The translations under genes and the position numbers were made by a program. Below, one piece after another: positions 3,391 to 20,788 of a stretch of DNA of 20,788 bases. Within the stretch, counting starts at the first letter, position 1. Each line of letters opens with the position of its first letter. Source of the DNA: a virus; the IMG/VR virus record IMGVR_UViG_3300047548_002047, positions 1 to 20,788 of that record, one strand, 5' to 3'. A model generated the notes under the pieces. It had not been told where the DNA came from, did not search any database, and worked only from the letters and a program-made list of their open reading frames with translations.

Positions 3391-4473
3391 TCAGACGACC
3401 TGCCAGACTCTTGCCTCACCTGGGCAGACCACGTACACCCCGGTAAAACCAGCAAACGACCGAGTGTGGTCCCGGCCCAGTGCGACTGCGATTCTGTGCG
3501 ACTGTTCCACACAGCTCTCCACAAAGATGGCGGGGAGACCGGTGTTTATCTGGTTCGCAGCCCAAGCGGCAAACATCTCCGCCTTCCACTCGGGGGTGTA
3601 CCTCGCCCGTCTCTCCTGCAGAGTTGGCTCCCCCCTCATCTGCAAAACGTCAACATCAATTCTCTTCTCCCGCAGCCACTGACGTGTCTCTCCTGCGTAC
3701 TTGCGGAGGCGAGCAGTCACCACAAGCGGGATGCGACCGCGTCTGGGGGCGTATCGCAAAGGGGCGGTGCGCATCCAGGAAACGTACTGAGGTCCATCGT
3801 CATCGACAGCCGCGGGGCAGTCCTCGCACAACACTCCGTCAAAGTCGCACGCCATGCCTGGCAGAAAGACACTGTTGAACAGATTCCACTCCAAAAAGTG
3901 TGGGTATGGCAACGTCTCCGCCCACAGGTCAGGCATCCGCTTGCTGTCAGGCGCACAATACACCGTCGCCGTCGTCACCTGCGAGGCCGTCCCACGCACA
4001 ATAGGAATCGTGTCCTGCAAACTGCGGCCTGTCATCGAAGTGTCGTCAACAACAAGCACATGCGCCGGACGATCTGTACCCTGCAGTCGAAACCCATGCC
4101 CCGCCGGAACAACATCCTTCTCGCTTTGCCGCACCACCAGCAGAGGTAGGTGCATCGTCATGGCAAGAATGGATGCCGATGCCAGACCGCTGCGAGACAC
4201 CCCCGCAATGGCGTCCACGTCTGCCGGGATTCGCGGCAAGAGCTTCAGCGTGTCAACAGCTAACTGCTGCGTCGTGACAAACCGCACCGGAGACTGCGAC
4301 TCTACGATTCGTGGAGCCAACTCTGCCAGTGCTGAAAGTCTAAACGCTGCTGTGCTGTACACCCGGCGGCGGCCGAAGGAGTCACGGCTGCCCAACAGCA
4401 CCTGAGGAAACCGACTTGCCACAGCAGTGGCACTGCTCTCAGGAAACACTCCGAGAAAGACTCGATCACCCAT
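3391..4473 (-). CDS. Phosphoribosyltransferase fused to a HAD-like domain
   Basis: This 360-residue protein has two recognisable enzyme parts. Residues about 65-185 form a type I phosphoribosyltransferase core: VDAIAGVSRSGLASASILAM (87-106) matches the early strand and loop, and VLVVDDTSMTGRS (139-151) is the PRPP-binding motif with its two adjacent Asp. Residues about 205-350 look like a HAD hydrolase: ACDFDGVLCED contains D210 and D212 (DxDG motif I), PLVVTAR (249-255) fits motif II with T253, K297 could be the motif III lysine, and AIFVES (315-320) sits where the final acidic motif is expected, though it is ES and not DD. The first 60 residues are unassigned. PRTases join a base or similar group to PRPP, and HAD enzymes often remove phosphates; the substrate is unknown. 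The start overlaps the upstream stop by eight bases (ATGGGTGA), suggesting coupling. It is an unexpected metabolic gene in a tail operon. Confidence 0.88.
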   Translation of the reverse strand: MGDRVFLGVFPESSATAVASRFPQVLLGSRDSFGRRRVYSTAAFRLSALAELAPRIVESQSPVRFVTTQQLAVDTLKLLPRIPADVDAIAGVSRSGLASASILAMTMHLPLLVVRQSEKDVVPAGHGFRLQGTDRPAHVLVVDDTSMTGRSLQDTIPIVRGTASQVTTATVYCAPDSKRMPDLWAETLPYPHFLEWNLFNSVFLPGMACDFDGVLCEDCPAAVDDDGPQYVSWMRTAPLRYAPRRGRIPLVVTARLRKYAGETRQWLREKRIDVDVLQMRGEPTLQERRARYTPEWKAEMFAAWAANQINTGLPAIFVESCVEQSHRIAVALGRDHTRSFAGFTGVYVVCPGEARVWQVV

Positions 4474-4822
4474 CGCCCACTCCCGCCCCTATCGCATGCT
4501 GAACAGCCCACCCAGCGCGGTTCAGCAGGCTCTTCCTCTCGTCACAACCGCACGGCCCCACCAACGCGGAGACTCTCTCCTCGGTGATGCCCACAGCAGA
4601 CAACCCCCGTGATATTGCGTTGCCTATTGCAAAGCCAGAGGGCTCTCCTCCAGCCGCATGGATTGCGTCCTTGATTGCAGCCACGCGGGAGCAACACGTT
4701 TCATCGGGCACTAATAGCCGACGCATGCCGGCACCAGTGATGCTGCCGCGTATCAGCTCTGAAAACTGAAGCGTCAAAGCTGACGCCTTGTCTTCTGGTA
4801 TCTTACCTACAGCTTTGGGCAC
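4466..4822 (-). CDS. Small protein with a CGCDERK motif, function unknown
   Basis: This 118-residue protein starts at GTG (4820-4822). The preceding stop codon is part of its Shine-Dalgarno (TGAGGTGG), so the two are tightly linked. Cysteines occur as two pairs: C43-C44 (DETCCSRV) and C91-C93 in GPCGCDERKSLLNRAGWAVQ (89-108). The second motif resembles short Cys-x-Cys-x2-Arg-Lys-x2-Leu-Asn signatures that I associate with small phage proteins, but I cannot name a family. Four cysteines could bind one metal ion or form disulfides. The middle (about 46-85) reads as helical. It directly precedes and overlaps the phosphoribosyltransferase/HAD gene by eight bases, so the two may be made together; a shared function is only possible, not shown. 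Confidence 0.72.
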   Translation of the reverse strand: MPKAVGKIPEDKASALTLQFSELIRGSITGAGMRRLLVPDETCCSRVAAIKDAIHAAGGEPSGFAIGNAISRGLSAVGITEERVSALVGPCGCDERKSLLNRAGWAVQHAIGAGVGDG

Positions 4823-4830
4823 ACACCACC

Positions 4831-5730
4831 TCAGTCTATTGGGAAGATTTCTGGAACGCCAAAGGAAGGATTACTGCCGTTAAAGGGGTCTACCGGCGAG
4901 TATGTCGTACCGCACCTCCAGTTTGGGGACCCAGGGCCGCCAAAGCCAGGCTCACAGTCCCGCACCCAAAGAAATCGATGTGAGGTGCGACAGTTGTACC
5001 TATCCCCGCCGGTAGCCAGCACAATGTCAGTCCGAAACTGTTGATACGCACAATACCCGAAAGCAAACGGGTAGTACACAACCAGCAGCACAAAAGCCTG
5101 CTCACGCACACCACCCGAAGTGGTCGTGCTTACGACACGCACCACAAATCGCCGCCGGCCTTCAGAGCAGAAAGCACCAATGCTACAAGGGTCCATCACG
5201 TAGGGCAGGCCTGCGCAGCAGTTGCGGGGGTCTACTGGTTTTTCGTCCCGGTCTAGGCAACGGCAGCATTCAGTGCATATGGTGTCATCGCCTTGCACGA
5301 GTGAACACACTGGTAGCTCCTCACTCACCCAGCAGTTGCTGCATCCGTAGTTGGTCAGCAAAAACTCACCAACGTATTTTGAGGAGGTGCAAAGACCAAA
5401 TAGGTTGTTGTCGTACCGTGGAGGGCGACCCATGCCGTATATGGGCGGCATCCGCAGCAGGTACCTCCTCTGAAAGTTGTTTTCGTACGCAAAGTTGCTG
5501 TTGCCCGGAGGAACCCAATTGCATATGGGCCCGGGAACCAAGTCAAAATAGCCGCTTGTCGTTTGGGTGCTGCACGGAACATACCCAGCACCTCCGTTGC
5601 TGGGGCGGACGCACACAGGACAGCCCCGGTCTGTGACACCGTTGACTCCGGACTCTGGCGCATACATGTGACTGCACCGCTGCCGGAACATTCCAGGCTG
5701 CCTCAGCCATCGCACGCACTGCACAGACAT
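4831..5730 (-). CDS. Cysteine-rich phage protein (paralogue A), 299 residues
   Basis: The protein has 22 cysteines in 299 residues, often clustered (CTECCRC and NCCAG near the middle). Its first 53 residues share a spaced pattern with the neighbouring gene at 5732-6532: C5, W8, G13, F15 and C19 fall at identical positions, followed by GCPVCV and GAGxVPC. The later parts also align loosely (a RRFVV strand, an LLVVYY strand, then a Cys-bearing stretch), so the two are probably full-length tandem paralogues. No signal peptide is visible. The cysteine density suggests disulfides or metal sites. A surface-exposed virion or tail-tip role is possible from the position after the hub-like gene, but nothing in the sequence proves it. 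The ATG at 5728-5730 lies one base beyond the preceding stop; its ribosome site is weak. Confidence 0.75.
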   Translation of the reverse strand: MSVQCVRWLRQPGMFRQRCSHMYAPESGVNGVTDRGCPVCVRPSNGGAGYVPCSTQTTSGYFDLVPGPICNWVPPGNSNFAYENNFQRRYLLRMPPIYGMGRPPRYDNNLFGLCTSSKYVGEFLLTNYGCSNCWVSEELPVCSLVQGDDTICTECCRCLDRDEKPVDPRNCCAGLPYVMDPCSIGAFCSEGRRRFVVRVVSTTTSGGVREQAFVLLVVYYPFAFGYCAYQQFRTDIVLATGGDRYNCRTSHRFLWVRDCEPGFGGPGSPNWRCGTTYSPVDPFNGSNPSFGVPEIFPID

Positions 5731-5731
5731 G

Positions 5732-6532
5732 CTACACCGCCGTCAGCGTTAAGTAGACGTAAAAATTGTTTACAAAGTTGGTGTTCGGCAGCAGCCAGAA
5801 CCAAGGGCTGCGCATTAGGGGAGTACCCGTCGAGTAAAAAGCTGCCGTGGGCCCGCCAGCGGAGGGCTGCCATGATGAAGGTACCGTCAGACAGTCGTTA
5901 CTGTATGCCGTGAACCTCAATATGTACTCTGTACTCGGCCTGCCAAACAAACCACACAGAGGGTGGCTGACAACACTCCTCCAGTTCACACTCAGCACCC
6001 ACAACACTTTGTTCTTGCTCGAATCCCACTGAACTTCGAGCTCAAACCGAGGGCGTGCCACAACCGGGGTGTCGACTATGCCAGGGGATGTGCCATCCAA
6101 GCATGTTTGACTGAACGCATCTACCGGAGTCAAGTAGACGGTGGTGATTTTCTGCGAGTCGTTGTTGTCGTCAAAATAGACCACCAACTCTTTCTCGGCT
6201 GACACCCACAGGCAGTCAACGTCTCCGTGATGAACCAGATCCCAGCTGTTTGCTGTGTAGCTGTTGGGTAGATTGGTATTCCACACCCACAATGGATCTG
6301 TATTTGGTTTGACCACACTACCAATCGACAACCGATATCGAAACTTGGCCCGCTCTGACGGAGGCGACCCGCTGACCTGCGGGCAGGCGTCACAGGGCAC
6401 CAACCCAGCACCAGGCAGTGGCGTCACACACACGGGGCACCCCGGAGTACCAACCATAGGCTCCATGGGTTGCGCACATTCGGTCGAAAATGTGCCCACA
6501 CCAGACAGCCAAGTGTAGCATCGCGTTGTCAT
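5732..6532 (-). CDS. Cysteine-rich phage protein (paralogue B), 266 residues
   Basis: This is the shorter partner of the gene at 4831-5730. The N-terminal module has cysteines at 5, 19, 32, 35, 47 and 50, with the shared W8, G13, F15, GCPVCV and GAGLVPC; the rest contains only four more cysteines. After residue 60 the sequence alternates hydrophobic and polar residues (KELVVYFDD, FELEVQW, VLWVLSVNW, STEYILRFTA), which suggests a beta-sandwich-like fold. That fits an exposed tail or capsid appendage, but no named family was recognised. The ATG (6530-6532) is one base after the upstream stop, with AGGG seven bases before it. Tandem duplication followed by divergence, with gain of cysteines in paralogue A or loss in this one, is the simplest history. 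Confidence 0.75.
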   Translation of the reverse strand: MTTRCYTWLSGVGTFSTECAQPMEPMVGTPGCPVCVTPLPGAGLVPCDACPQVSGSPPSERAKFRYRLSIGSVVKPNTDPLWVWNTNLPNSYTANSWDLVHHGDVDCLWVSAEKELVVYFDDNNDSQKITTVYLTPVDAFSQTCLDGTSPGIVDTPVVARPRFELEVQWDSSKNKVLWVLSVNWRSVVSHPLCGLFGRPSTEYILRFTAYSNDCLTVPSSWQPSAGGPTAAFYSTGTPLMRSPWFWLLPNTNFVNNFYVYLTLTAV

Positions 6533-6533
6533 G

Positions 6534-7316
6534 TCAATACCCTGGAGGAGTCACAGGGGTGTCGAGGCTGACGCACAGCTGCAGCTCACTCTGTTCGCCG
6601 GGTGCTGGCAGAGACAGTGTTAGTGTGCCGTCAAGGATGACGCTGCTGGTGACGTCATCGCCCGTACCGTCTGTCACTGTCAGGTAGTCGCCCACATCCA
6701 AAAACCAATCGCTGGAAGACTGTCGCCAAGTCATCGAGTAGACGCCTGCAGGCAGCGTCACTGTGTACTGACCGAACACCAACACGACTGAGTCTTTGTA
6801 TTCAACACTCCACCGTCTGACTGTCCTGATTGGGGGTGCGGTAGGGTCGTCCTGCTGTATTATCAGGTCGTACTCTTCAACGCACTCACACCCACAACCC
6901 GCATCATCGGGCGGTGATTTTTCACTGGCAGCCGGAATCACAGTTGCGACCCCGTTGACCGGCTGATGAACCACACGAAAGCCAACACCTGCCGAAGACA
7001 TGTACCACTGATCGATGACCGGTCCGACTTCCTGGCCAACGGCAACCAAGCCGTCAACCAACACACTGCGGGGGCGATCCCACAGCAGGCTTTCAGACAT
7101 CTTTCCAGACGCGATAGGCTTAGAGCCGTTTACAAAAAACAAACCGTACTTGGCGTTTGGCTTTCGCCCAAACGCAGACCCAGACTCGAACTGCCCTCGC
7201 ATGTGCACCACGGCGTGCGCCGGTACCTCTTCCCCTGAAAGATTCTTCCAAGGAATGACCGCCGTCAAGCCCGTCGCGTCTCTCTGTACCTCAACTTGCG
7301 TCCTATTCTGCACCAT
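6534..7316 (-). CDS. Beta-rich putative tail or virion appendage protein
   Basis: The ATG at 7314-7316 is chosen because GGGAG lies seven bases upstream; a GTG one codon earlier is also possible. The protein is 260 residues. Its first part (IPWKNLSGEEVPAHAVVHMR, about residues 22-41) has a pattern I associate with phage virion proteins, and the whole N-terminal half reads as short beta strands. A short acidic cysteine cluster (DDAGCGCECVEEYD) separates it from a C-terminal beta domain (WSVEYKDSVVLVFGQYTVTL, YSMTWRQSSSDWFLDVGDYL). No enzyme motif is present. It overlaps the end of the hub-like gene by 14 bases and is followed by the two cysteine-rich paralogues. A tail-tip or receptor-contact role is inference from gene order. 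Confidence 0.7.
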   Translation of the reverse strand: MVQNRTQVEVQRDATGLTAVIPWKNLSGEEVPAHAVVHMRGQFESGSAFGRKPNAKYGLFFVNGSKPIASGKMSESLLWDRPRSVLVDGLVAVGQEVGPVIDQWYMSSAGVGFRVVHQPVNGVATVIPAASEKSPPDDAGCGCECVEEYDLIIQQDDPTAPPIRTVRRWSVEYKDSVVLVFGQYTVTLPAGVYSMTWRQSSSDWFLDVGDYLTVTDGTGDDVTSSVILDGTLTLSLPAPGEQSELQLCVSLDTPVTPPGY

Positions 7317-9015
7317 CACCCCACTCCCTGATTGCTCTTTGCTGCCATCTTATCACAGCTGGAACACCAAGAATAGCCATCGCATGGGCTCTTCTCACAG
7401 ACGAGCTCGGCACCCCCCGGTCAAACTCGATCTGTCTTGAAGCGATCGTTCTGTTGACCGCGTGTGCCCCCTCGCCACAAGTCAAGATGTGTTGTACTTG
7501 CAGCACAGCACCGTCACATCGAAGGCCCAGTTGGGGTGTTGCATATGTGCAGTGCTGCCCCGCCTTTGGCGCCCACAGTGACTGAGAGGCGTTGATCGCA
7601 GCCGTCGCTTTGGTGTCAAGAGACCCTTGGTTTGTGCTGACAGCCACCTGCGTCTGCGAAGCTGAATACTCAACTACTGTCTTTTTCCTGTCTTCAAGCC
7701 GTATCGTGTGGTAGCCAACACCAGAAGCAGCCACCTCCTGCTGTGATTCAGCACACACAAGCGTGCCTGTGCTGAACTGTCGCAACTCAAAGGTGCACTC
7801 TAAGTATAGCTCGGCAGGATACCACTTGCCTTCGTGTGTCAAAAAGATCGGTCGATTGAAGAACACCATGCCTTCCTCGCCGTCAAAGACGTGCGACCGT
7901 TTAACTCGATCTCCAACGGCCGTTGCGTCTGTGTTGGGTGGTGCAGCTGCGTTGTCGTCGTCCTCCTCTTTTGTGTATCGACCGTAAACCAAATATCGCC
8001 GGTACGACTCGTCTTCTCGGGTGTTATCTGCCGCAAGCAGATGGTTTTTTAGAGGCAACACCTGCCACCGTTGATTGACCGTGCCGCTACCGTCGGGCAT
8101 TGCCCAGGACGCTGGATTTGGGTCTGCTGGCGTGGCTGGAGATCCCGCCGCAAAACCCTTGATACGGTATGCTCGCCGAACATACCCATCTGCTTGCTCT
8201 TTGTCGTCGGCGTCAAGTATGCCCCCATCGGGTTGTACAGAGACGGGCGGTGTCAGCTCCCAGCCTTTAACTGGATTTCCGTTGGCGTCAACGGCTCCGG
8301 TGTCAGGCGCGTAGCTTAGCTCGTTGATCGGCTTCCACGAGCCATCAGTCTCTCGACCGACTGCTTCGAGAAAAAATCGGGCCTGCATCCAAGACGGTTC
8401 AAAAACAACCTTGGCCCATCGAGGGGGCACCGCCGGGTCAAACGCATCTGTGTACACAAACCGAAGAGTCGTCGGCAACGACAAACCAGTACCAAGTCTT
8501 ACGACTTTGACTGGCTCAGTGCCAAACCCAAGTGTCAAAGAGTACCCGACAGAGTCCAACAACTGTCGAAGCTCAGTCAGCGGATCAGCGTTTTGCCAAT
8601 GCACGGGGATGAAGTGGTCGTTTGGCAGCACGCTCACATTCGCCGAGGGTTCTCCGATTGCCGTCAAAAGCAAAGAAGCCATGTCGCGAAGTCCCAGAGG
8701 CCGGGACACACCTCCAGCTCTCGGAACATTGTAACTGCCGCTGACAGGTGCCGCTCGTGTCCACCACACTCGCCTGTCTTTCAGGACAATGTGGATCTGC
8801 CGGCCACCCCCGTCAAATCGAACAGAGCTGAGATCAATAAGACACTGAGGTAGCGTAACTGACGTACCGTCCCAAGACATCGTCAGCGTACCCTGCGCCG
8901 GGAAGTTGGAATCCTGTGGAAGAGCCACCAGAGATGCCACGTCTGGGTCAAACCCGGTAGTCTGCGTATAGACGCAACTGACCGGTCGGAGGATTCCGGG
9001 GAAAGACCAAGGCAT
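7303..9015 (-). CDS. Putative tail hub or baseplate protein
   Basis: This 570-residue protein starts at ATG 9013-9015, with AGGAG (9022-9026) six bases upstream that includes the stop of the preceding gene. The N-terminal 110 residues read as beta strands (GTLTMSWDGTSVTLP, QIHIVLKDRRVWW). At about 110-178, RDMASLLLTAIGEPSANVSV is followed by DPLTELRQLLDSVGYSLTL and VKVVRLGTGLSLP. A helix that scans for a low-complexity position followed by a beta hairpin is typical of phage hub proteins of the gp27 or late-control D type, which form the trimeric ring under the tail tube. The rest carries loops and strands without a recognised enzymatic motif. Gene order (after the tail-tube-like gene) agrees. 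Confidence is high for the gene and moderate for the role. Confidence 0.72.
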   Translation of the reverse strand: MPWSFPGILRPVSCVYTQTTGFDPDVASLVALPQDSNFPAQGTLTMSWDGTSVTLPQCLIDLSSVRFDGGGRQIHIVLKDRRVWWTRAAPVSGSYNVPRAGGVSRPLGLRDMASLLLTAIGEPSANVSVLPNDHFIPVHWQNADPLTELRQLLDSVGYSLTLGFGTEPVKVVRLGTGLSLPTTLRFVYTDAFDPAVPPRWAKVVFEPSWMQARFFLEAVGRETDGSWKPINELSYAPDTGAVDANGNPVKGWELTPPVSVQPDGGILDADDKEQADGYVRRAYRIKGFAAGSPATPADPNPASWAMPDGSGTVNQRWQVLPLKNHLLAADNTREDESYRRYLVYGRYTKEEDDDNAAAPPNTDATAVGDRVKRSHVFDGEEGMVFFNRPIFLTHEGKWYPAELYLECTFELRQFSTGTLVCAESQQEVAASGVGYHTIRLEDRKKTVVEYSASQTQVAVSTNQGSLDTKATAAINASQSLWAPKAGQHCTYATPQLGLRCDGAVLQVQHILTCGEGAHAVNRTIASRQIEFDRGVPSSSVRRAHAMAILGVPAVIRWQQRAIREWGDGAE

Positions 9016-9024
9016 GCCCTGCTC

Positions 9025-9783
9025 CTACACAATCGGTGGGATTGTAAACGAACTGAAGCCTTGTGCGGTGGTTGCCTCCATGACATACCGCCACTGCACA
9101 CGATACATCTCATTTCCCTGCGGACTCAAATCCGCGGGTGCGTCGTACGTGATGACACGCATCTCTTCGTGTTCGATTGATGGGTATAACGGTGACGGTA
9201 TTGAGGGGTACGCTGTGCGACCAACGGCCTCGCCCTCTTGCAGGTACAGGAATGTGCTGGCGCTCTGTAGCTGCTGTCGCTGCGGCTCCCCGCTTTCCTG
9301 CGGAGAGTAGACCCACTTGGGGCCACCAGTGCCTTGAATCGACACCCGGTGCTTCCAGCTGTGCAACCCACTGCCTGTTCGCACTTCCGCGCGCAGAACA
9401 ATCGCATACGTGCGCGCGTCGAGGTATTCGACCTGCTGGCCCCACGGCCCTTGGTCATACCGCGGAGGCATCAACACCTTCACGCCGCCGAATGTTGCCG
9501 CATTCGACAAGACGTGTCTTGTCGGAGTCGTACCGTCAGCCAGGTACAAACCAAAATCTTGGTAGTCGACAGCGTACGCCTGTTCCATCGAAGCAAGAGC
9601 AGCAGTCAACGCCGCCTTGGTAGCCGTGTCGTTTGCACCTCTCGGGACGCGTTTGACTCCGAGAATCGTGTACTCATACACAGTACCCATGCGCCGGCGC
9701 AAATCGTCGAAGATCGCCTGTGTGGAGATTCGCACGGCACACTCATCGACTGCGTGTGAATATGATCCGTACTTGAAGATCAC
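9025..9783 (-). CDS. Putative tail protein, 252 residues, function unknown
   Basis: The start is GTG (9781-9783), overlapping the previous stop as GTGA, with a strong GGGAGG (9792-9797) eight bases upstream. The protein opens with IFKYGSYSHAVDECAVRIS and contains helical (AALTAALASMEQAYAVDYQD) and beta-rich parts (TYAIVLRAEVRTGSG, RVITYDAPADLS, YRVQWRYVMEATT). The mixture fits a small tail or baseplate component. No family was recognised with confidence. It is placed between a proline-rich protein and the hub-like protein, and is only nine bases from the latter, so it probably belongs to the same tail module. Confidence 0.75.
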   Translation of the reverse strand: MIFKYGSYSHAVDECAVRISTQAIFDDLRRRMGTVYEYTILGVKRVPRGANDTATKAALTAALASMEQAYAVDYQDFGLYLADGTTPTRHVLSNAATFGGVKVLMPPRYDQGPWGQQVEYLDARTYAIVLRAEVRTGSGLHSWKHRVSIQGTGGPKWVYSPQESGEPQRQQLQSASTFLYLQEGEAVGRTAYPSIPSPLYPSIEHEEMRVITYDAPADLSPQGNEMYRVQWRYVMEATTAQGFSSFTIPPIV

Positions 9784-10649
9784 AGCACGTACCTCCCTTC
9801 AGGCTCGACAGGAAACCGTTTGGCTGTCGTGACAGCTGTCGGCTCGACAGGGGCCGTCGGCCGCAGCATCGGTACGCTGTGTATCGTGAACGGCGGCAGC
9901 TGAACGCCGTCCATGATCCTCAGTCGATCGACTTTGGCGAACTCCCTGAGCACTGCGTTGACATCAGCACCTCTTGGAAAAACAAACTCTGCGTCGGCGG
10001 TGCGACCGGAAGACGTCTGCAGGTCGACAGGGTCTGCTGGGCGTGCGTGATTTTTTGGTTGCTGCAGAGGCACAGCAGACATCCCTACGACTGTCTCAAA
10101 AGGCAATTCAATCGCAGACTTTCCGCTACGGGTTGAGCCGCCTATCACCTCGGCAGGTATCCCCTCCACGATGCGACTGGCATAGAAGTCCGCCGGCGAG
10201 GTCGACCGAGTCTGACCTAATGTTGGTTGGGCAGAGTCGCCCTCTCTCGCGAATGCTGCTCTCGCCTCTGCTGCCGGCGAGATGCTCTGCTGCGGCGGCA
10301 GTGGAGACACGTCGCCTCCACGAATGCTTTCCGCGTACGCAACAGTGGCGGCGGCACCGGCATCAACAGGGCGAACAGCTGCAGATGCCTGCTCACCTAC
10401 ATTGAGAGACGGCAAGACTGCGTGCGCGGCGGATCCTGGTACTACTGGCTTTGTACTGAGGTGTGCTTGGCTGCTTTCAAAAGACTCAGGGTCCCGTACA
10501 ACAGCCTCGGGAGTCGGTGCGGGCGGGGCTTGATCTGGGTCAGCCGATCGTATCAGACCCCACTGCTCCTGCAAATGCTCTTGCGGAATCTCGGGCAGCG
10601 GGCCGGCTGTCTGCTGGAGCAAACGGATTAAATCGTCGATCACCGCCAT
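9780..10649 (-). CDS. Proline- and alanine-rich linker-like protein, 289 residues
   Basis: The ATG at 10647-10649 gives MAVIDDLIRLLQQTAGPLPE, a plausible amphipathic N-terminus, although no clear Shine-Dalgarno is seen upstream. The next 160 residues are rich in Pro, Ala, Ser and Glu and look disordered. The C-terminal 70 residues (FVFPRGADVNAVLREFAKVD, RLRIMDGVQLPPFTIHSVPM) look folded. Residues 171-178 (GSTRSGKS) match the Walker A consensus, but no Walker B or other NTPase feature surrounds them, so I do not call it an ATPase. Its first 110 bases overlap the end of the upstream gene in another frame. It is probably a tail-associated protein by position. The C-terminus overlaps the next gene by GTGA. 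Confidence 0.68.
   Translation of the reverse strand: MAVIDDLIRLLQQTAGPLPEIPQEHLQEQWGLIRSADPDQAPPAPTPEAVVRDPESFESSQAHLSTKPVVPGSAAHAVLPSLNVGEQASAAVRPVDAGAAATVAYAESIRGGDVSPLPPQQSISPAAEARAAFAREGDSAQPTLGQTRSTSPADFYASRIVEGIPAEVIGGSTRSGKSAIELPFETVVGMSAVPLQQPKNHARPADPVDLQTSSGRTADAEFVFPRGADVNAVLREFAKVDRLRIMDGVQLPPFTIHSVPMLRPTAPVEPTAVTTAKRFPVEPEGRYVL
9792..9797 (-). promoter_or_regulatory. Shine-Dalgarno GGGAGG for the GTG start at 9783
   Basis: GGGAGG on the minus strand lies eight bases before GTG at 9783 and within the coding end of the upstream gene. It makes the unusual GTG start convincing. Confidence 0.7.
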
Positions 10650-11268
10650 AATGCACAACCCAATTTATGGTCATCGAGTTTCTGGCAAACGTAGAACACC
10701 GCTGCAACAGCTTTGGTGTGTTGGCGCCGTACCGCCACCAATGCCGCCACGTCTTGGCAAACTGTTCGACCGATAATCCGATAGGGTTGGCATACGATCC
10801 TTTGTCGCACCCCTGCCGGGTCTGGCATGGTACCGGAGTCCCTAGTGGCAGGTCAACCCGGTCACCACTTGCACTGTAGTACAGCTCGCCACTGCTGTGG
10901 TCAACAGAGTACCTTCGACAGGTGTCACAGCTAAGCTCAGATAGGCGTGGCTTACTTATCTGCAGTCGAACAGTGTCAAACAGTCGACCCCACGCATCGG
11001 CTTCCTGCTCTCGCGTCTGTCGGAAGACAGAGAGCAGCAGATGGGATACCTGATGATCCTGTTCTTCTGGCAGATTTGCCAAGTATCGATGAACCCGTTC
11101 AGCATCCAAACCGAACACGAACGGTGGCCGAAGTACTGATCGAAGGCAGGCTGCAGGGTTGGCTGTGACTTCCCGCAAAACACTCTGCTTGTCTGCGCAC
11201 AGCATCGGCCTGTAGCAGCAGAAGCCGACGTCGACGGTGAAACCGTCATCGATCTCAGGAGGAATCAC
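10540..11268 (-). CDS. Cysteine-containing protein after the tail-tube gene; possible tail assembly protein
   Basis: The open frame reaches 11325, but the likely start is GTG (11266-11268), which overlaps the upstream stop as GTGA and has GGAGTGG (11276-11282) seven bases upstream. The product is 242 residues. Four cysteines form a plausible zinc site: C114 and C117 in SCDTCRRYS, C148 in VPC and C154 in GCDKG. The middle (EQEADAWGRLFDTVRLQISK) is helical. Position directly after the tail-tube-like gene is where tail assembly chaperones occur in many long-tailed phages, which makes that a hypothesis. The last 37 residues overlap the next gene in another frame; the end could be real, or the gene could really end near VVHYGG by a frameshift. 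I cannot decide by eye. Confidence 0.72.
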   Translation of the reverse strand: MIPPEIDDGFTVDVGFCCYRPMLCADKQSVLREVTANPAACLRSVLRPPFVFGLDAERVHRYLANLPEEQDHQVSHLLLSVFRQTREQEADAWGRLFDTVRLQISKPRLSELSCDTCRRYSVDHSSGELYYSASGDRVDLPLGTPVPCQTRQGCDKGSYANPIGLSVEQFAKTWRHWWRYGANTPKLLQRCSTFARNSMTINWVVHYGGDRRFNPFAPADSRPAARDSARAFAGAVGSDTIG

Positions 11269-12131
11269 GGCGATACCACTCCGACGTTGAATACCGGAAC
11301 CGTCGTCTGCCGAGCAGCTATCCACGTCTCAGGCAGTCGAATCTCCTCGGATGCGCCCTGAATGGGTGGTGCCTGTGGGTTGTTCACGGCCTTCGGCATG
11401 TTGATGGTGAAGGTGTCTGTACCGTTTGTGACGGCCAAAGACAACGCAGCACCAGCAGCACTGTCACGGTACGTCCAGTAGTGCCCTTTATTTGCCGCGG
11501 TATATGGGACTGAAAATGCCATCAGCACCTGTCGCGACCCCTGACCGATGTCACTGAAGGTGACGGCTCCGTTAAAGCTCGATACCAGGTTGCGACGCAC
11601 AACCCAAACAAATCTGTCGAGGTCAAACGCGCCGGCCGCCAGAGTCGCAGTCACTCCTCCAGAAAACGGAAACAGTCTTTTCACCGTCCCGGCCGTGAAG
11701 ACGTATGAGGAGTCTTCGACCTCGTCCTGAGCAACCCAAGTCGACTCTACCTGAACAGGCAGCGTGCCGATCTGCCCGCGAATCAGCAGCTGGTCAAGGT
11801 AGCATTTTTGGTATCGGTGAACGGCCCCTACCGCGTTGACTACGATCTCGACAAAACTCAGGCTTTGGTCGGCTGTGTAAGTGCCCGTTGCCAGCGTAGA
11901 ACCGGCCAACGGCAGCAGCTGTTGAAGCAGCGGAATTGTCAGGTCGTGCACAAGCGAAAATCTGATGCGGCGAGCGCCCGTTCCCATTCGTTCAATGTTT
12001 GGATCAACATTGCCGCAAATGGCATCCGGGTTGACAACCCGGTCGACGTTTACGTCGGGCACCCACCGGGCGAAACATTGCGTGCTGCCACCAATACTGA
12101 CAGCAGCACTCACCCCAACGGACACTGGCAT
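11265..12131 (-). CDS. Putative major tail (tube) protein
   Basis: This 288-residue protein starts at ATG 12129-12131, with AGGGAG six bases upstream that includes the TGA of the previous gene. It is rich in Val, Ala, Gly and Thr and alternates hydrophobic and polar residues, suggesting a mainly beta fold. The section RIRFSLVHDLTIPLLQQLLP, followed by SFVEIVVNAVGAVHRYQKC and LLIRGQIGTLPVQVESTW, resembles the strand-helix-strand and ring-packing regions of tail tube proteins: a charged loop, a strand pair, then a small-residue 'G-x-x-G-x-LPVQVE' strand. Gene order (after a terminator-like gene) also fits. If correct, the phage has a long tail. A capsid or decoration protein is the main alternative. 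Confidence 0.62.
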   Translation of the reverse strand: MPVSVGVSAAVSIGGSTQCFARWVPDVNVDRVVNPDAICGNVDPNIERMGTGARRIRFSLVHDLTIPLLQQLLPLAGSTLATGTYTADQSLSFVEIVVNAVGAVHRYQKCYLDQLLIRGQIGTLPVQVESTWVAQDEVEDSSYVFTAGTVKRLFPFSGGVTATLAAGAFDLDRFVWVVRRNLVSSFNGAVTFSDIGQGSRQVLMAFSVPYTAANKGHYWTYRDSAAGAALSLAVTNGTDTFTINMPKAVNNPQAPPIQGASEEIRLPETWIAARQTTVPVFNVGVVSP

Positions 12132-13955: not shown

Positions 13956-14644
13956 AAGTCTTCTCGCAACAAGGGGATCTTGGACGCCGCCTTTTTAATC
14001 GACCCGGGCTTTCCTGGGTCGTCGATGACGGGGGCTTTCATCATCTGATCGGCTGTTACGTCAGGAGCTGCGTGGCGGTGTAGAATCTCCTCTCGAACGT
14101 CGCGAGGGTCAACCCCGTCGAACTCGCCAGTCTGAGCGTACACTTCTTGGATGTGCTGCATAGCGTACTCAGACATGCGGTCCTGCCGCACGACGGGTGC
14201 TTGCTGCTTGGGATGGATTTCCCAATCACCCTCTACCGTGCAGTTGCGGTCACGCATCGCCTGTTTCACAGAGTCCAATGGGTGCTTGTGCGTCACAATA
14301 GCCGCGGGGTCTCCTGGAAACCTTGCAAGCCCTCGATACACAACCGCATCTGCTGGCAAGTCTTCGCCTGTCAGCTTACGGTAGTTGTTGCGGTACAGGT
14401 TCAACATCGGCTCGCAGCCGCGAAACTGCTCTTGTACTGAAGGTGTGTTGGCGTGCAAAACGCGGTCGCAGATGCCTGCTGTTGGCGCTTTCCGCACAGC
14501 CAGCATCGCCGCCATGCGCACAGACTCACCACGCGAGATCATGCTGTTGAATGCTCGAACTGCGGGAGCACCAGCCCGCTGAACCGCAATCCACTGCATC
14601 TCATCCTGTGCGTTTTTGAATCGAGGGGGTTTGTTTGCGGACAT
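13952..14644 (-). CDS. Hypothetical protein after the portal, 231 residues
   Basis: The open frame reaches 14662 at a TTG, but ATG at 14642-14644 is preferred, with AGGA eight bases upstream. It overlaps the end of the portal gene by 44 bases. The protein begins MSANKPPRFKNAQDEMQWIA and is mostly helical with basic segments. A stretch LPADAVVYRGLARFPGDPAA carries a YRGL sequence that recalls the arginine motif of ADP-ribosyltransferases, but neither the Ser-Thr-Ser nor the Glu-x-Glu motif is present. The C-terminus (GKPGSIKKAASKIPLLREDL) is lysine-rich. The location, between portal and adaptor, is where scaffold, protease or capsid genes are often found, but the protein fits none of these clearly. 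Confidence 0.65.
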   Translation of the reverse strand: MSANKPPRFKNAQDEMQWIAVQRAGAPAVRAFNSMISRGESVRMAAMLAVRKAPTAGICDRVLHANTPSVQEQFRGCEPMLNLYRNNYRKLTGEDLPADAVVYRGLARFPGDPAAIVTHKHPLDSVKQAMRDRNCTVEGDWEIHPKQQAPVVRQDRMSEYAMQHIQEVYAQTGEFDGVDPRDVREEILHRHAAPDVTADQMMKAPVIDDPGKPGSIKKAASKIPLLREDL

Positions 14645-16790
14645 CGTTGCGTTCCTGTTCAAAAATCAGCTGTTGCAGGTGTACCTCGTCTGCCTGCTGC
14701 AACCTCTGCATGTGTTCGGTTTGCTGCCACTGCAGTCGTGCGGCCTGTGCCGGTGCCATACCCTGCTGTTTGTACTGAGTATCAACCAGTCTGCCAACAG
14801 CTCGGGCCTGCAAATCCTGGGCAGCGGCTTCAGCTTTCTGGATGTCTGCCTGTGTCTTTGCAGCCTCAAGTTGAGCCGCTTGCTGCTGCATCTGCAGCAC
14901 GGCGGGGTCTGGCTGCGGCGGTTGCCACGGACCGATCAACAACGGCTCGATGTTGCGGATCTGCATCGCAGATGCGTACAACTGCATAAACCCGTTGAGC
15001 GGGTCTGTGTTTCCCGTCTGTCCGGCGTACTGCTGAAGCACCGGCAGCCAGAACGGCGCGATCTTTTCGAGCTGTGCGATGTCGCGGTCGCGGTCCGGAC
15101 GTGCCATGTCTGTCGCTTCAACCGAGACGTCCACTTCTTGAATCATTCGGTCGAATGGCATGGACCGCACAAGCTGCTCCCAGCACATCGCGCCCCAATC
15201 GCCGAGCAATCCGGCAAGCCCTGGACCGGCCATGTACTGAGCAGACAGCCAGAGCTCTTTCTTGCCGATGTTTCTCACCGCGGTTGCAACATCCTGTGCC
15301 ATCTTCTCAGGGCGAACTTGGCTTGCTTGCTGCCTCAGTGAGATGTCGGCAGTCACACGGGCCTGTCGCTGGCTGACACCGTACGCCGTGTCATCAAGGC
15401 CTGTGGTCAGTTTGAACTGGTTGTCAAGATACTGGATCCACCCCAGCAGGTCACCCTGCACCTCAGGACGCCGGATAAACTGCACGACTTGGTCAAGTGG
15501 CAAACCGGCGGCGCTGTTGACTTTGATGAAAGCTGGGTTCTGTTCGCTCTGAATGGCGGCCTGCACGTCCCCAACGACGTGCTCAAGTGCTGCGATAATA
15601 TCTCGGCGACGGTCCCACGACAGCTCCAGCATGGTGACCAACAACAGGTTCATCGCCAACAAAGCGCCAAGACCGGGCGTGAATGGAGCCATCGGCCACA
15701 CCGTGTTCGAGATCGGGTAGAAATCGATCTGCTCGAAAGGCCATCGCCGGTCTTTCCACAGCTCAGAAACGGCCCCGAAGCGGCTTGTTCTCCACAACAA
15801 ACAGCCTCGGATCATGTCTGCAGTTCCTTCCTTCACAACCGGTGGTGGCAGGTTGAGAGGGTGCGGCACGTTCATCGACAGGGCCAAGTAGCAGTAGTCA
15901 CCTGACAGCGCGTCTAACGCCTGCCCCAAGTCTGCACGAACGCCCGTTGTCCGGACACCAAGGCCGCACCGCGACCACACCTCATACCACTCCATCTGGT
16001 CTTCATAGACCTTTTGCTGCGCGGTGCTCTCCTGCAGCTTACGATACTCGGAACTGACACTTGTGCCCCGATCCGCGAGGTATCCTGGTGGGTACCCAAA
16101 CCTGCGCTCCACCACGCTGATGGGCTCGACATGTCGGCGTGCACACCACCGCACGTCACGCAGCGTGGGGTCTTTGGCGTCCGGATCCAAAAACAGATTG
16201 TCTACCGTGTCGTGAAACGTGCCAACGCGTGGCTGCGAAGTAACTGGATCGGCAAACGTCTCCGTCCACAGTAATCCCCGACCAGTCACCAGCGCGTCCT
16301 GAATTGCCATCTGAATGTCTCGGACAACGCCGCCGGGGTGCTTTTCGACGATGTGTTCGAGGACTTTCTGGCACAGGTCCGCTCGTACTTGGTTGAGAGC
16401 TGCCTCCATCTGCTGTTGCTGCTGAATCTGCTCTAGGCTCGTTGGGTTGTTGACGCCCAGTGCTTGAGCGTACACCGTTTGATCTGGCTTAGAGCGAACC
16501 ATGACCTGCCGAGAAGGGTGCCGCCAAAACAAACCGGGGCCTATGATCGCAACAAGGTCGGCAGCCCTGTTCAAGCTGATTCGCATGGTTGGCTGCGCAA
16601 GGTCTGGGTAGAACTCGCTGCGAAACTCATCCTGCCACATCGCGTTCGGCGAGTTGCCCATGAAGTGCCGGCAGATTCGAGCTACTTTGTCAAACCGCTC
16701 ACGAGACTTCTGTGCAGCCTGAAATCGTACGAACCACTGTGTGACCAGTGGCTGTAGCAGAAAGTTTTGAATGTCCTGCAAAGTGACCAT
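14601..16790 (-). CDS. Portal protein
   Basis: This 729-residue protein follows the terminase closely and has the size and layout of a large phage portal, which forms the dodecameric ring through which DNA enters the capsid. It begins MVTLQDIQNFLLQPLVTQWF and has a typical helical N-terminus. A Q-run (121-127) follows. The middle includes EQIDFYPISNTVWPMAPFTPG and a long helix-rich stem (QVRPEKMAQDVATAVRNIGK) with 'DISLRQQASQVRPEKMAQDV' reminiscent of portal wing/stem segments. From about residue 620 to the end it is a glutamine- and alanine-rich, highly helical tail (LQMQQQAAQLEAAKTQADIQ), often seen as the portal barrel region. Assignment rests on length, layout and position. Confidence 0.85.
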   Translation of the reverse strand: MVTLQDIQNFLLQPLVTQWFVRFQAAQKSRERFDKVARICRHFMGNSPNAMWQDEFRSEFYPDLAQPTMRISLNRAADLVAIIGPGLFWRHPSRQVMVRSKPDQTVYAQALGVNNPTSLEQIQQQQQMEAALNQVRADLCQKVLEHIVEKHPGGVVRDIQMAIQDALVTGRGLLWTETFADPVTSQPRVGTFHDTVDNLFLDPDAKDPTLRDVRWCARRHVEPISVVERRFGYPPGYLADRGTSVSSEYRKLQESTAQQKVYEDQMEWYEVWSRCGLGVRTTGVRADLGQALDALSGDYCYLALSMNVPHPLNLPPPVVKEGTADMIRGCLLWRTSRFGAVSELWKDRRWPFEQIDFYPISNTVWPMAPFTPGLGALLAMNLLLVTMLELSWDRRRDIIAALEHVVGDVQAAIQSEQNPAFIKVNSAAGLPLDQVVQFIRRPEVQGDLLGWIQYLDNQFKLTTGLDDTAYGVSQRQARVTADISLRQQASQVRPEKMAQDVATAVRNIGKKELWLSAQYMAGPGLAGLLGDWGAMCWEQLVRSMPFDRMIQEVDVSVEATDMARPDRDRDIAQLEKIAPFWLPVLQQYAGQTGNTDPLNGFMQLYASAMQIRNIEPLLIGPWQPPQPDPAVLQMQQQAAQLEAAKTQADIQKAEAAAQDLQARAVGRLVDTQYKQQGMAPAQAARLQWQQTEHMQRLQQADEVHLQQLIFEQERNDVRKQTPSIQKRTG

Positions 16791-17123: not shown

Positions 17124-18860
17124 TTAATCAGGAGCTCCGAGGAGGACACCAGTTCGGATTCTACCACGTTTACGAGACGCTGCCAAGCCGTCAAAGTACT
17201 TCGTTTCTCTCTCGAACGCGGCCACCCATGGATCGCCCGCCTGCGCGGCGACAGGGTGTGGTTGATATGCTGGGTGGCTGCCGGCCCAGTACTCCCCACA
17301 ATCCAGCACGTCGTGAATCTGACCGTCTGCAAGCCTCTCCTTGACATCATCCTTGTGAACAGCTCGCATGGTGCGGGTCAGCTGTCGTACGAGGTGAGGG
17401 CATGTGTGCAACACGACTCGAAGCTGTGGGCGACCGCACGGACGGTCCGTTCGCATCCAACCACGAAGAGCGGTTGATCGAGTGATCCACACAGGGTCCG
17501 CGACTTGGAAGTGAGATCCTGTGGTGTAGCAGGAGAGACCTTGCGCCAAGAAGTGCTGGCTGTAGTGCGACATCACTCGTAGGTTGTGGCCCATAGGCGT
17601 CTGCTCTCCGGCCTTCTTGTCGATGATGAACCGGCGATATACTCGGTGCTTGTCAGCAAACAGAACTCTCCTGGCAATCTCACGAGCATCAATCCGTTCG
17701 ACTGCGAGCTCTCGGTATATCACAAAATACGGCTCTCCGTCATCCCAGTAATCCGGGGTCGGTACGGCACCCCACAATAGTGCAGGTCTTTGTGTACCCG
17801 GGTCCAAGATCAAGTCTACGGTCCAGTCAGAAGGGGCGTTCCAGTTGTTCTCTCGGAGAGCAACAGCGACTCTGTCTTCTGCTGAAACCTGCAGCCCGAT
17901 TCCGTGCTTAGTCGTACTGAACTCAGGGTATGCGGCCGTGAGGTGCGTCGAAAACTCTCCGAGGTCGCGAGCTCGAATCTGCGCATCAGTCCAGCCGGCT
18001 CTTCGCAAGTCTTTCTGTCTTTGTGCAATGAACGGCGTCTTCGATCCAACAAACTGAAAATTCACGAAATCCGCCCGCGGTTTTTCTCCGCGAGCGACTG
18101 CGTCCATGTCTTCTGTCGTTCGTGCGTACAGGTCTGCCAATGCGCTGCAATTTGGGTCCGGCCAAGAAGACCAATACAGGCGGCCAGCACGGTCAGACAA
18201 TCGGCTTTGCCATTCTGGGTAGTGATTGTCATTTTCAATTTCTTCGTCGATCCAGATACGGTTCACGGGGTCGCCGCGTTTCACCTTCGCGGTGGACGCA
18301 TAGGCGTAAACAACACTCCCGTTTCGCAAAGTCATCGACGTCAGTTTATGCTCGCCGCGGTTCTCCCACGTTTCACTGACGACCATATCGTCGGGGATAA
18401 ATGCAGGACCAGGCATGCGACGGGTGGGGTCGAGATCTTCGTCTCCGGGAACAACACCGGGAGCCCACGCCCGGATAGCCCCTGTCTTCTCGTCGACCAC
18501 CACGTCGAATGCCCCCGGCATCCGCAATAGACGGTACAAGGTCTGACCAATGTGGTTGAGCTGCAGGCCGATCATCCACACGACGACTGGGCGGTTCTGC
18601 CAAGCAGGCTCCCGAACCCGAACACGCGTCCCGTCGTGGAATACGATCTCCCTGTCGAGTAGATACGCTGCGATGATTGCAGCGACAATCATGGACTTGC
18701 CAGACCGCGTACCTCCTCGTACAAGGATTTCAGTCGCATCGCAAGTGATCACGGGCTCTTGGTGCTTCGCAGGGCGAAACACAGAGAAGGCGTCTTGTTG
18801 CTTGCGCTGCAAACGGGCAGCCGCCTGCAACGCCAGTGTGAGGTCTTTCTGTGTGAGCAT
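17124..18860 (-). CDS. terL: Terminase large subunit
   Basis: The protein packages phage DNA into the capsid using ATP and cuts it. The start used is ATG 18858-18860, which shares a base with the upstream stop (TGATG); a GTG just before it is possible. In the 578-residue product, GGTRSGKS (49-56) is Walker A and IWIDEE (202-207) is Walker B with its catalytic Glu. The C-terminal RNase H-like nuclease is supported by acidic residues in DLILDPGTQ (D349 and D353), FIIDKKAGEQ (D414) and HDVLDCGEYW (D517 and D520). RARDLGEF (about 296-303) corresponds to the usual linker 'GEF' segment. No fusion or frameshift is seen. The overall length is typical for a large terminase. Confidence 0.95.
   Translation of the reverse strand: MLTQKDLTLALQAAARLQRKQQDAFSVFRPAKHQEPVITCDATEILVRGGTRSGKSMIVAAIIAAYLLDREIVFHDGTRVRVREPAWQNRPVVVWMIGLQLNHIGQTLYRLLRMPGAFDVVVDEKTGAIRAWAPGVVPGDEDLDPTRRMPGPAFIPDDMVVSETWENRGEHKLTSMTLRNGSVVYAYASTAKVKRGDPVNRIWIDEEIENDNHYPEWQSRLSDRAGRLYWSSWPDPNCSALADLYARTTEDMDAVARGEKPRADFVNFQFVGSKTPFIAQRQKDLRRAGWTDAQIRARDLGEFSTHLTAAYPEFSTTKHGIGLQVSAEDRVAVALRENNWNAPSDWTVDLILDPGTQRPALLWGAVPTPDYWDDGEPYFVIYRELAVERIDAREIARRVLFADKHRVYRRFIIDKKAGEQTPMGHNLRVMSHYSQHFLAQGLSCYTTGSHFQVADPVWITRSTALRGWMRTDRPCGRPQLRVVLHTCPHLVRQLTRTMRAVHKDDVKERLADGQIHDVLDCGEYWAGSHPAYQPHPVAAQAGDPWVAAFERETKYFDGLAASRKRGRIRTGVLLGAPD
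17975..18007 (-). repeat. 33-bp segment of the terminase also found in the upstream gene (30/33 match)
   Basis: This stretch and 19753-19785 differ at only three of 33 bases, including 19 identical bases in a row. In the protein the copy encodes RRAGWTDAQIRA. Both copies are in the same orientation, 1778 bases apart. Confidence 0.75.
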
Positions 18861-20788
18861 CACTGCACCCCACCGTACTGATTGAACCGACCGGCGGCTT
18901 GCTGCAAGAGATACTGCCCAATCGGACTCATGAGAGACGGCAGCTCAGACCTGTCAAGTGGCGACCGAGAGCGTGTCACACCAAACAGCTCCCCAAAGGT
19001 CTGCCGTGCACGCGGAGACGCCTGCATCAGCCTCTGAGGCATCATCGCACCACCGCTTTGGTAGGCGTCTTGCATGTTGCGTTGCAAACGGGACAGAGGG
19101 CCTTGCAGAGCTGGAGACGACGTGTTGACGCCCTGCAGCAGTGCTGCTTCGATGGCGTCTGCGACTTGCTCCTCGATTGCTTTTTGCTGCATGCTGCCAA
19201 CCATGTTTTGATTTGCAAACACATCCCCCCGCAGCCAATGCACCAGCTCGTGTGGAGCCGTTGCCGGGTTTGCCTGAGACCCGAACACTATGTTTCCCGT
19301 GAGGCCTTGCGGCTCTCGGAAAGACATGTCAATCCGTCCATACGCGTTCGGGGCGCGAACGGTTTCTTCAGGAAACACAGCAGATGCTTGCTCTGGAGAA
19401 GCAACCATGCCAACCGGGGACATCGGTCTTTCAGGTATCGCAGGCGTCGACGGCGCAAAAGCACTGGCTTGGTTGGCACGAGACTGCCGCATACCTTCGA
19501 CGATCTGCAACGCTGCGTCTCGGGCTTGCTCTGGAGTGGAATAGACGGGCCAATAGTCACTCTGCTCAGCCATCGCAGGGACCGCCCACTCCCCGTCAAT
19601 TTTAGCCGCAAACCCCCGCATCGGCCGTATAAGCCGTCGACGGTCTGCCGTCATGGAGACCGATCGTGGGTGGATAGTGATTTCCGGATCCACTTGGTTG
19701 TAGTCAGAGTACGTGACGGGTTGGGTTGAAGGCCCACCCAGATTCAGTGCTTGAATCTGCTCGTCTGTCCAGCCGGCTCTTCGCAGAGCAATTCGCCGCT
19801 GCACCGGATCCACTTGGTTGTATTCTGCCGAATTCAATCTCAACCGGCTGTTCGCAAGTTGCCGGCCTTCGGTCGGTGTCAAACCACCAACCAATGTCTC
19901 AACTGCATCATCCACACCTCGCTGTGCCTGTGTGGCGTTAATCTGTGCAGCCAAAGCTGCATCCGAGGCAGAGTCAGCCTGCTCACGCCGAAGCTCAGCA
20001 GCAACAGCACGAGCTGCAGACCCTCTCTGCGTATCAATTTTGTTTTCCATCCGCCGTGCAGCTGCCGCCTGTTTGGCAGCCTCCTGTGCGGCCCGACGCT
20101 CAGCTTGCATTGCCTCTTGCCGAGGTCTAATCGCAGCTTCCAACCGCTCAAGCTCTGGGTCTGCCTTCGTGGTCCTTTGTGTGACAGGATTCAGCACTGT
20201 ATCGTCAGGCTGAAATGCCACAGTCAGATCCTGAACGCCGGGGTTTGGTTTAGGTCGCAGAAGTCGACGTGCTTCTGTGGACGAAACACCTGACAAGGCT
20301 GTGTCTACAATGTCAGAAAGCTGCTGCTCTCCACGAATGTTCTCTCTACGTAACGAAGCGTTGACCGCGCGGATGGCGGCGTCCAAGGGGTCCTCTGGTT
20401 TTTTAACTCGCGGTTTACGAACAGGCCTGGTCGTTGGTGCCGCTGGCGTTTCGACCGGCATCGGAGCTGGATCAGGCAGCACAGCCTCGATCGGGTTTTT
20501 GGGCGTTGCTTCAGTCACAGACTGCTGGGCCGCTGCTGCCATCGCAGCCTGTGCAGCAGGCCCGTCGGCCGCAGTCGGAGGAACGGCTTCACCCCGCGTA
20601 CGGTCCCAGCCTGTCCACTCCCACTGCTTGGTAATACCGTTCCACTTGTGCTTTTCTCTCCGGCCAAAAACAAGCTCTTTTTTGCTCGCCAGTTCGTCAA
20701 GGGTTGTCGCCGGCGTTTGAAGTAGAGCCATCTCTTGTGGAGTGAACATCTGCTCTACAGAAGGGTTCGTGCTCAACCAATTCTGCAA
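18860..20788 (-). CDS. Alanine-rich protein with an HELVH zinc-protease-like motif, N-terminus truncated by window edge
   Basis: At least 642 residues are in the window; the frame is open at the right edge, where the first codon is TTG, so the true start is probably outside. Residues 1-205 are Ala/Pro-rich with few folded segments. About 205-290 is a charged helical region (ERLEAAIRPRQEAMQAERRA). Residues 323-368 carry two YNQVDP copies around LRRAGWTDEQIQALNLG. At 513-517 HELVH matches the zincin HExxH motif, with EEQVADAIEAAL (539-550) as a possible third-ligand helix. The ending is FNQYGGVQ. No other protease feature is visible. Its place directly before the terminase suggests a virion or head-maturation protein; an alternative is an ejected protein that acts on the host. 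Confidence is high for the gene and low for protease activity. Confidence 0.72.
   Translation of the reverse strand: MQNWLSTNPSVEQMFTPQEMALLQTPATTLDELASKKELVFGRREKHKWNGITKQWEWTGWDRTRGEAVPPTAADGPAAQAAMAAAAQQSVTEATPKNPIEAVLPDPAPMPVETPAAPTTRPVRKPRVKKPEDPLDAAIRAVNASLRRENIRGEQQLSDIVDTALSGVSSTEARRLLRPKPNPGVQDLTVAFQPDDTVLNPVTQRTTKADPELERLEAAIRPRQEAMQAERRAAQEAAKQAAAARRMENKIDTQRGSAARAVAAELRREQADSASDAALAAQINATQAQRGVDDAVETLVGGLTPTEGRQLANSRLRLNSAEYNQVDPVQRRIALRRAGWTDEQIQALNLGGPSTQPVTYSDYNQVDPEITIHPRSVSMTADRRRLIRPMRGFAAKIDGEWAVPAMAEQSDYWPVYSTPEQARDAALQIVEGMRQSRANQASAFAPSTPAIPERPMSPVGMVASPEQASAVFPEETVRAPNAYGRIDMSFREPQGLTGNIVFGSQANPATAPHELVHWLRGDVFANQNMVGSMQQKAIEEQVADAIEAALLQGVNTSSPALQGPLSRLQRNMQDAYQSGGAMMPQRLMQASPRARQTFGELFGVTRSRSPLDRSELPSLMSPIGQYLLQQAAGRFNQYGGVQ
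19684..19702 (-). repeat. 19-bp direct repeat, copy 1 (YNQVDP codons)
   Basis: On the plus strand CCGGATCCACTTGGTTGTA occurs here and again at 19804-19822, exactly 120 bases (40 codons) apart in the same orientation. Both copies read the same frame and encode YNQVDP. Confidence 0.85.
19753..19785 (-). repeat. 33-bp segment shared with the terminase gene
   Basis: Copy of the segment at 17975-18007 with three mismatches. It lies between the two 19-bp direct repeats and encodes RRAGWTDEQIQA. Confidence 0.75.
19804..19822 (-). repeat. 19-bp direct repeat, copy 2 (YNQVDP codons)
   Basis: Second copy of the 19-base direct repeat, flanking the terminase-like segment on the other side. Confidence 0.85.

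Follow-up and report, generated by a model that had tools for sequence, protein, structure and literature searches.

What is the role of two neighbouring cysteine-rich proteins that begin alike and then diverge? This question is raised by the viral record IMGVR_UViG_3300047548_002047 of IMG/VR, which was analysed here as a whole (20,788 bases, the window). Two open frames on its minus strand follow each other closely. Protein B (266 aa, 5732..6532) starts after a gap of one base behind the upstream gene, and protein A (299 aa, 4831..5730) after another one-base gap behind B. The original prediction counted 22 cysteines in one and 10 in the other, and these numbers were found again in A and B, respectively. 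It also saw in the pair tandem paralogues, perhaps varied at a host-contact surface. Our preferred reading, held with moderate confidence, is that A and B are virion proteins located at the distal tail of an uncultured tailed phage, either in the tail tip or as side adhesins, with a common N-terminal module that would act as a docking tag and C-terminal parts that would be displayed.

The common N-terminal module

First, the similarity between A and B is confined to about 53 residues at the N-terminus. BLASTP aligns residues 1-53 of A with residues 1-47 of B (42% identity over 53 columns, E=2e-7), and the local score of 96 was reached by 0/2000 shuffles, which gave 25.3 +/- 4.9 (z=14.4). In the alignment, the module covers residues 1-56 of A (5563..5730, minus strand) and residues 1-52 of B (6377..6532, minus strand). 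C5, W8, G13, F15 and C19 coincide without a gap and are followed by GCPVCV and GAGxVPC, the latter reading GAGLVPC in B; the original prediction had described exactly this arrangement, with the right coordinates and frames. The coincidence at the five positions was seen in 0/200,000 composition shuffles. The five common cysteines are spaced C-x13-C-x12 or 17-C-x2-C-x11 or 12-C. At the codon level, identity over the 49 sites of the module amounts to 27 for first, 25 for second and 14 for third positions, a pattern which indicates that the module is translated, constrained sequence in which the protein sequence is held. The same codon is used for 8 of the 22 amino acids common to both modules. 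Because third positions agree at just 14 of 49 sites, the duplication or exchange that produced the two copies is judged to be old.

The remaining 214 residues of B and 243 residues of A have no similarity detectable by sequence. Their local score of 32.0 equals that of shuffles (mean 32.1; z=-0.03 local, 0.27 global). Thus, the claim of tandem paralogues holds for the N-terminal module and does not extend to the C-terminal parts, and the adjacent duplication proposed with it lacks support for whole proteins, since only about 53 residues are common to both. As judged from sequence, A and B are neighbours sharing a module, and full-length paralogy is not demonstrated. It is conceivable, if doubtful, that they are nevertheless full-length paralogues whose C-terminal parts kept one fold while diverging past sequence recognition, which would be compatible with the docking-tag reading. 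In favour of such an origin, A and B stand in tandem, have similar lengths and align in small islands of the global alignment, such as WVS-x-E after a cysteine. However, 959 of 2000 shuffles reach the C-terminal local score while the module stayed 42% identical, and 17 cysteines lie beyond residue 55 in A against 4 in B. Single-sequence AlphaFold models had a mean pLDDT of 32 for B (residues 2-266) and 34 for A, values too low to inform on either fold. What the pair presents is the composition of an anchor-tag pair, that is, a common N-terminal module (z=14.4) in front of C-terminal parts (z of about 0) which are unrelated as far as sequence comparison reaches.

The search for homologues of the GCPVCV module that was suggested with the original prediction was run by patterns, by profile and by alignment scan; the module was found beyond A and B in none of the searches made. 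A DNA pattern for CPxC..P..GxG..PC, in which one cysteine codon was fixed as TGC so that some relatives could be missed, hit 24 stretches. Six loci had the protein motif in an open frame, none of them with the C5/W8/G13/F15/C19 part, as judged by eye on the residues shown. When a profile of the module was run over the ORFs of 124 sequences, only A and B exceeded the threshold, and the next best match (E=0.011, in L020 and L025) consisted of the CPxC..PC stretch alone. The alignment-based scan for the module returned no relative, and viral contigs scanned for close relatives with A, B and the terminase gave no match. A profile search of the PDB yielded chance-level matches only, the best being ovomucoid at E=0.067.

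The cysteine pattern itself invites another explanation. With one more cysteine roughly 12 residues behind it, CPVC looks like half of a zinc ribbon. The module might then be a small finger for zinc or another metal, and A and B non-virion proteins, for example late regulators or assembly factors, whose cysteines bind metal in the reducing cytoplasm. In line with this, among PHROGs, Pfam and NCBIfam, to which A has no match, B matches a single family, PF18912 DZR_2, through residues 14-50 (E=0.0065), at 16.7 bits and thus below the curated cut-off of 27. We regard this explanation as unlikely, because A has no DZR_2 match at E<=0.1, the spacing of the five common cysteines is not CxxC-CxxC, and a site after the tail genes together with variability across relatives fits a regulator poorly.

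Gene order and conservation up to the slot

The long plausible genes of the window all lie on the minus strand. In reading order, they begin with a gene cut by the contig end, the large terminase (17124-18863), a small gene and the portal (729 aa, 14601..16790), which matches PF16510 P22_portal (E=1.6e-10) as well as phrog_1216 and phrog_156. Conserved genes follow, including a tail-tube-like protein (288 aa, 11265..12131), a homologue of which (L027:13614-14480) matches phrog_290 'minor tail protein' at E=1.4e-4. Then come proteins of 292 and 252 aa, a hub-like protein (570 aa, 7303..9015) and an adaptor-like protein (261 aa, 6534..7319). B and A stand directly behind the adaptor, in the position referred to here as the slot, and are followed by a 118-aa gene, a phosphoribosyltransferase-like gene and a 1041-aa gene. 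'Hub' and 'adaptor' are labels by gene position with no family match behind them, and the hub-like protein has no significant match in PHROG, Pfam, NCBIfam or PDB. The term 'tail block' is likewise provisional, being taken from the portal and one tail-tube-like match.

Related contigs were collected by portal and hub scans, one of these scans being limited to the best 80 of 117 relatives. Of 32 sequences with a hub match, one being the source record itself, we removed duplicates as well as loci that stop at the hub or shortly behind it, which left ten IMG/VR records (L027, L028, L033, L039, L040, L041, L043, L049, L050 and L058). L041 and L043 have near-identical hubs and were both kept because their slot proteins differ; the four records of the L041 type (L041, L043, L049 and L050) form one clade and are not independent. 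For L028, L033, L049 and L058, the start of the slot was set by hand. The 60 loci L064-L123, drawn from the best 80 of 117 relatives, are mostly divergent portal relatives with 24-32% identity. Only L099, of the L058 group, has a hub or adaptor match among them, and their other cysteine-rich ORFs bear no resemblance, by eye, to slot proteins. Outside these contigs, tblastn against 50,697 phage records found no relative of the terminase and portal of this phage or of a relative's hub; there was no match in plasmids for a relative's portal, nor in phages for the slot protein of L039 or for the adaptor of a relative. Hub and portal alignment scans of a bacterial and archaeal genome collection detected no relative, though scans of this type work through a small number of peptide patterns and may overlook distant ones.

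Conservation was assessed by tblastn (E<=1e-3) against the ten related records. The portal (47-54% identity), the tail-tube-like protein (46-49%), the 252-aa protein (53-65%) and the hub-like protein (40-45%) are matched in 10/10, the last being also the last gene before the slot to be conserved at near full length. The terminase is matched in 7/10, because three loci stop short of it, and in 13/13 records that were searched whole. The adaptor has matches in all ten as well, with a best piece that ends at residue 117-136 in seven and at residues 154, 170 and 217 in the other three. Its N-terminal part is thus conserved and its C-terminal part variable, with SGSGSG/SSSSS tracts in L027, L028 and L033. 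A and B, by comparison, are matched in 0/10. The pair stands where the tail gene block ends distally, at a place where the content differs among relatives. Other genes lack matches too, which tempers a simple reading of the slot: both genes that follow A, of 118 and 360 aa, are equally found in 0/10, as is the 292-aa gene (9780-10658, minus strand) inside the conserved block by tblastn, and the 1041-aa gene is found in 3/10. At the place of the 292-aa gene, relatives have a similar-looking gene start.

Several other features of these contigs were recorded. The 360-aa phosphoribosyltransferase-like protein (3391-4473, minus strand) matches PF00156 at residues 85-200 with 27.9 bits against a cut-off of 26.3, and residues 244-282 give a weak polynucleotide-kinase match (phrog_415, E=0.0043). 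The terminase and the gene upstream of it have a short LRRAGWTD-like stretch in common (19694-19804, minus strand, in the latter; E=4.4e-5, 49% identity over residues 280-317). In L035, the terminase frame (6807-9605) has 932 aa and 17 cysteines and is matched by the terminase of the window in two pieces (residues 2-522 and 521-578), which suggests an insertion that keeps the frame, for example an intein. Upstream lies an ORF that may be related to GIY-YIG endonucleases, which it resembles. At the left contig end (1-390, minus strand), the first 130 aa of a protein are encoded, and they contain the motif GNxLDLPGSxxRD. This type of start is found in two genes of relatives, one of which precedes the terminase (858 aa in L027, 700 aa in L124), while the other, giant and cysteine-free, lies farther on (1628 aa in L128, 1842 aa in L125). 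The right-end ORF (18860-20788, minus strand) is similar to the C-terminus of the gene that precedes the terminase. With an N-terminal piece of such a gene at the left end and a C-terminal match at the right end, this contig seems to be a linear fragment. Upstream in L027, a conserved gene of 380 aa, possibly the capsid gene and with no significant family match, falls outside this contig.

Slot proteins of the relatives

Cysteines make up 7.4% of A and 3.8% of B, against 0.95% (60/6293 residues) over the other 16 genes pooled, one of which is cut by the contig end. Two of these 16 are about as cysteine-rich as B, namely 10540-11325 (3.8%) and 4466-4822 (3.4%). The former (minus strand, 261 aa, 10 cysteines) is a conserved protein of the block, present in 10/10 relatives at 28-38% identity. 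The original prediction called such a density of cysteines uncommon, but in this slot it is common, exceeding 5% in 6/10 relatives.

The slot after the adaptor is filled in all ten relatives examined. Six of the slot proteins are cysteine-rich (5.3-9.7%): those of L027 (230 aa, 13 cysteines), L028 (175 aa, 17), L033 (175 aa, 13), L039 (715 aa, 61), L058 (642 aa, 34) and L040 (445 aa, 35), the last located just behind the end of the adaptor frame. They are like A and B in their position after the adaptor, in high cysteine content and in N-terminal cysteine clusters, and unlike them in sequence, with no detectable homology; their N-terminal parts carry CC or CCC clusters and not C5-W8-G13-F15-C19-GCPVCV. 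The four proteins of the L041 clade (473-484 aa; 3, 7, 6 and 5 cysteines in L041, L043, L049 and L050) each start with MQLGRCCKCN. High cysteine content is therefore not required in the slot, as 4/10 relatives have a cysteine-poor protein there, and this counts against our reading. In this clade, a second slot gene follows, also cysteine-poor and of 280 aa (listed in three, with an 85% match in L049). Two consecutive slot genes hence occur in the L041 clade as well as in the window. An all-versus-all comparison of slot proteins (E<=0.1) detected homology only between L039 and L058, within the L041 clade, where first and second slot genes form separate groups, and between the modules of A and B.

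N-terminal cysteine content was compared in 11 slot proteins, among them A and B but not L049, and the first 55 residues of these contain 5.5-14.5% cysteine. An N-terminal excess at P<0.05 was found in five of the 11 (L033, L041, L043, L050 and B), three of which come from one clade. It is significant in B (P=0.006) and not in A (P=0.38), L027, L028, L039, L040 and L058. A general N-terminal cysteine tag in slot proteins is thus a lead and not a result.

The slot proteins of L039 and L058 share repeated cysteine-rich domains. When a profile is built from both L039 copies, its match in L058 is interrupted exactly between positions 49 and 50, and the approximately 230 residues in between match PF03781 FGE-sulfatase (L058 20165-22093, residues 99-303, E=1.1e-33). 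From this alignment, the FGE-sulfatase domain is read as an insert on a cysteine-rich scaffold. Among the first-slot proteins of eight relatives scanned (L043 and L049 were outside the scan), PF03781 is found only in L058, and neither A nor B has it. The L039 repeat was also considered for A and B and was rejected, the profile giving E=0.7 for B and leaving A unlisted. Retroelement-driven variation found no support either: RVT_1 was found in 0/16 records, the source record included, which may be fragments, and the FGE part is invariant among L058, L059 and L099. These three differ by one substitution before the FGE part and, in L059, by a 78-base in-frame difference after it; in L059, otherwise near-identical to L058, this is a deletion in the cysteine-rich part.

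The genes behind the slot bring up a further alternative, in which A and B would be morons, accessory cargo carried behind the tail genes whose function has nothing to do with the particle. Post-slot genes are mostly unshared, as the counts above for the 118-aa, 360-aa and 1041-aa genes show, and those of relatives match sugar- or methyl-transfer families: PF11051 in L028 (21121-22128, E=3e-18) and Methyltransf_24 in L027 (19951-20535). Genes at 11665-13585 of L128 look glycosyltransferase-like by eye alone. However, cargo would be expected to be absent from some relatives, whereas a slot protein follows the adaptor in every one of the ten examined, cysteine-rich in six, and the adaptor turns variable in its C-terminal part just before the slot, suggesting co-variation of an interaction. 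We therefore hold cargo to be quite improbable.

A candidate docking tag and known receptor-binding proteins

In the docking-tag reading, the module of about 53 residues would bind both proteins to one common site, for which the preceding adaptor or the hub is the most plausible candidate. The unrelated C-terminal parts would be displayed domains that contact a receptor or bind sugars; that of A would be stiffened by disulfides, that of B has few cysteines, and two different domains behind one tag would give two contact specificities per particle. The virion location of A and B is read from gene order, and the docking role and display of the C-terminal parts are drawn by analogy; these points, like the receptor contact and the preference for disulfides over metal, should be taken as tentative. 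Most likely, the slot is a variable receptor-contact slot in which A and B are probably interchangeable host-contact parts. The conserved hub and adaptor N-terminal part, the filled yet variable slot and the FGE/lectin-like domain in L058 together favour a host-contact surface. That part of the original prediction is accordingly strengthened by the real module, by the position after conserved tail genes and by the difference in slot content (0/10 for A and B, 10/10 for the genes before them), with placement in the virion still a matter of gene order. It weighs against the reading that the role of the module rests on two copies in one contig.

A broader version of the model can also be imagined. 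The N-terminal cysteine cluster, different per sub-lineage down to the bare MQLGRCCKCN, might lock interchangeable display proteins onto the adaptor like a plug in a socket, by disulfide or metal. We consider this improbable; if it were true, host-contact domains, lectin-like inserts included, would be freely exchangeable. In either form, a slot that is conserved in position, variable in sequence and mostly cysteine-rich marks genes for host-range testing. It may also help to predict receptor-binding proteins of uncultured phages that homology searches cannot reveal. A limited search of open-licence literature found no description of such a slot.

Two known systems come close. In Klebsiella phages, short N-terminal attachment peptides have been proposed for receptor-binding proteins with varying central parts, according to the portion of the source used here (PMC6872550). 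These modular proteins combine a variable main part, a depolymerase, with an N-terminal anchor or a short conserved N-terminal peptide, which is proposed to fasten them either to a second receptor-binding protein or directly to the tail. In this composition, A and B are like them. They differ in that their tags are cysteine modules, which the Klebsiella tags are not described to be in that portion (PMC6872550), similarity having been checked through family libraries only. Furthermore, the two tag copies are neighbours within a single genome, and the family searches showed no depolymerase domain in A or B. The second system is Mtd, the receptor-binding protein of a Bordetella phage, whose fold is the FGE subclass of the C-type lectin fold, as stated in the excerpt of the source used (PMC5006420). 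Mtd-type receptor-binding proteins are diversified by a retroelement, and L058 is like them in having PF03781 at the equivalent slot, whereas A and B, with no PF03781 and from a set of 16 records with no RVT_1 match, are unlike the type described in that excerpt (PMC5006420).
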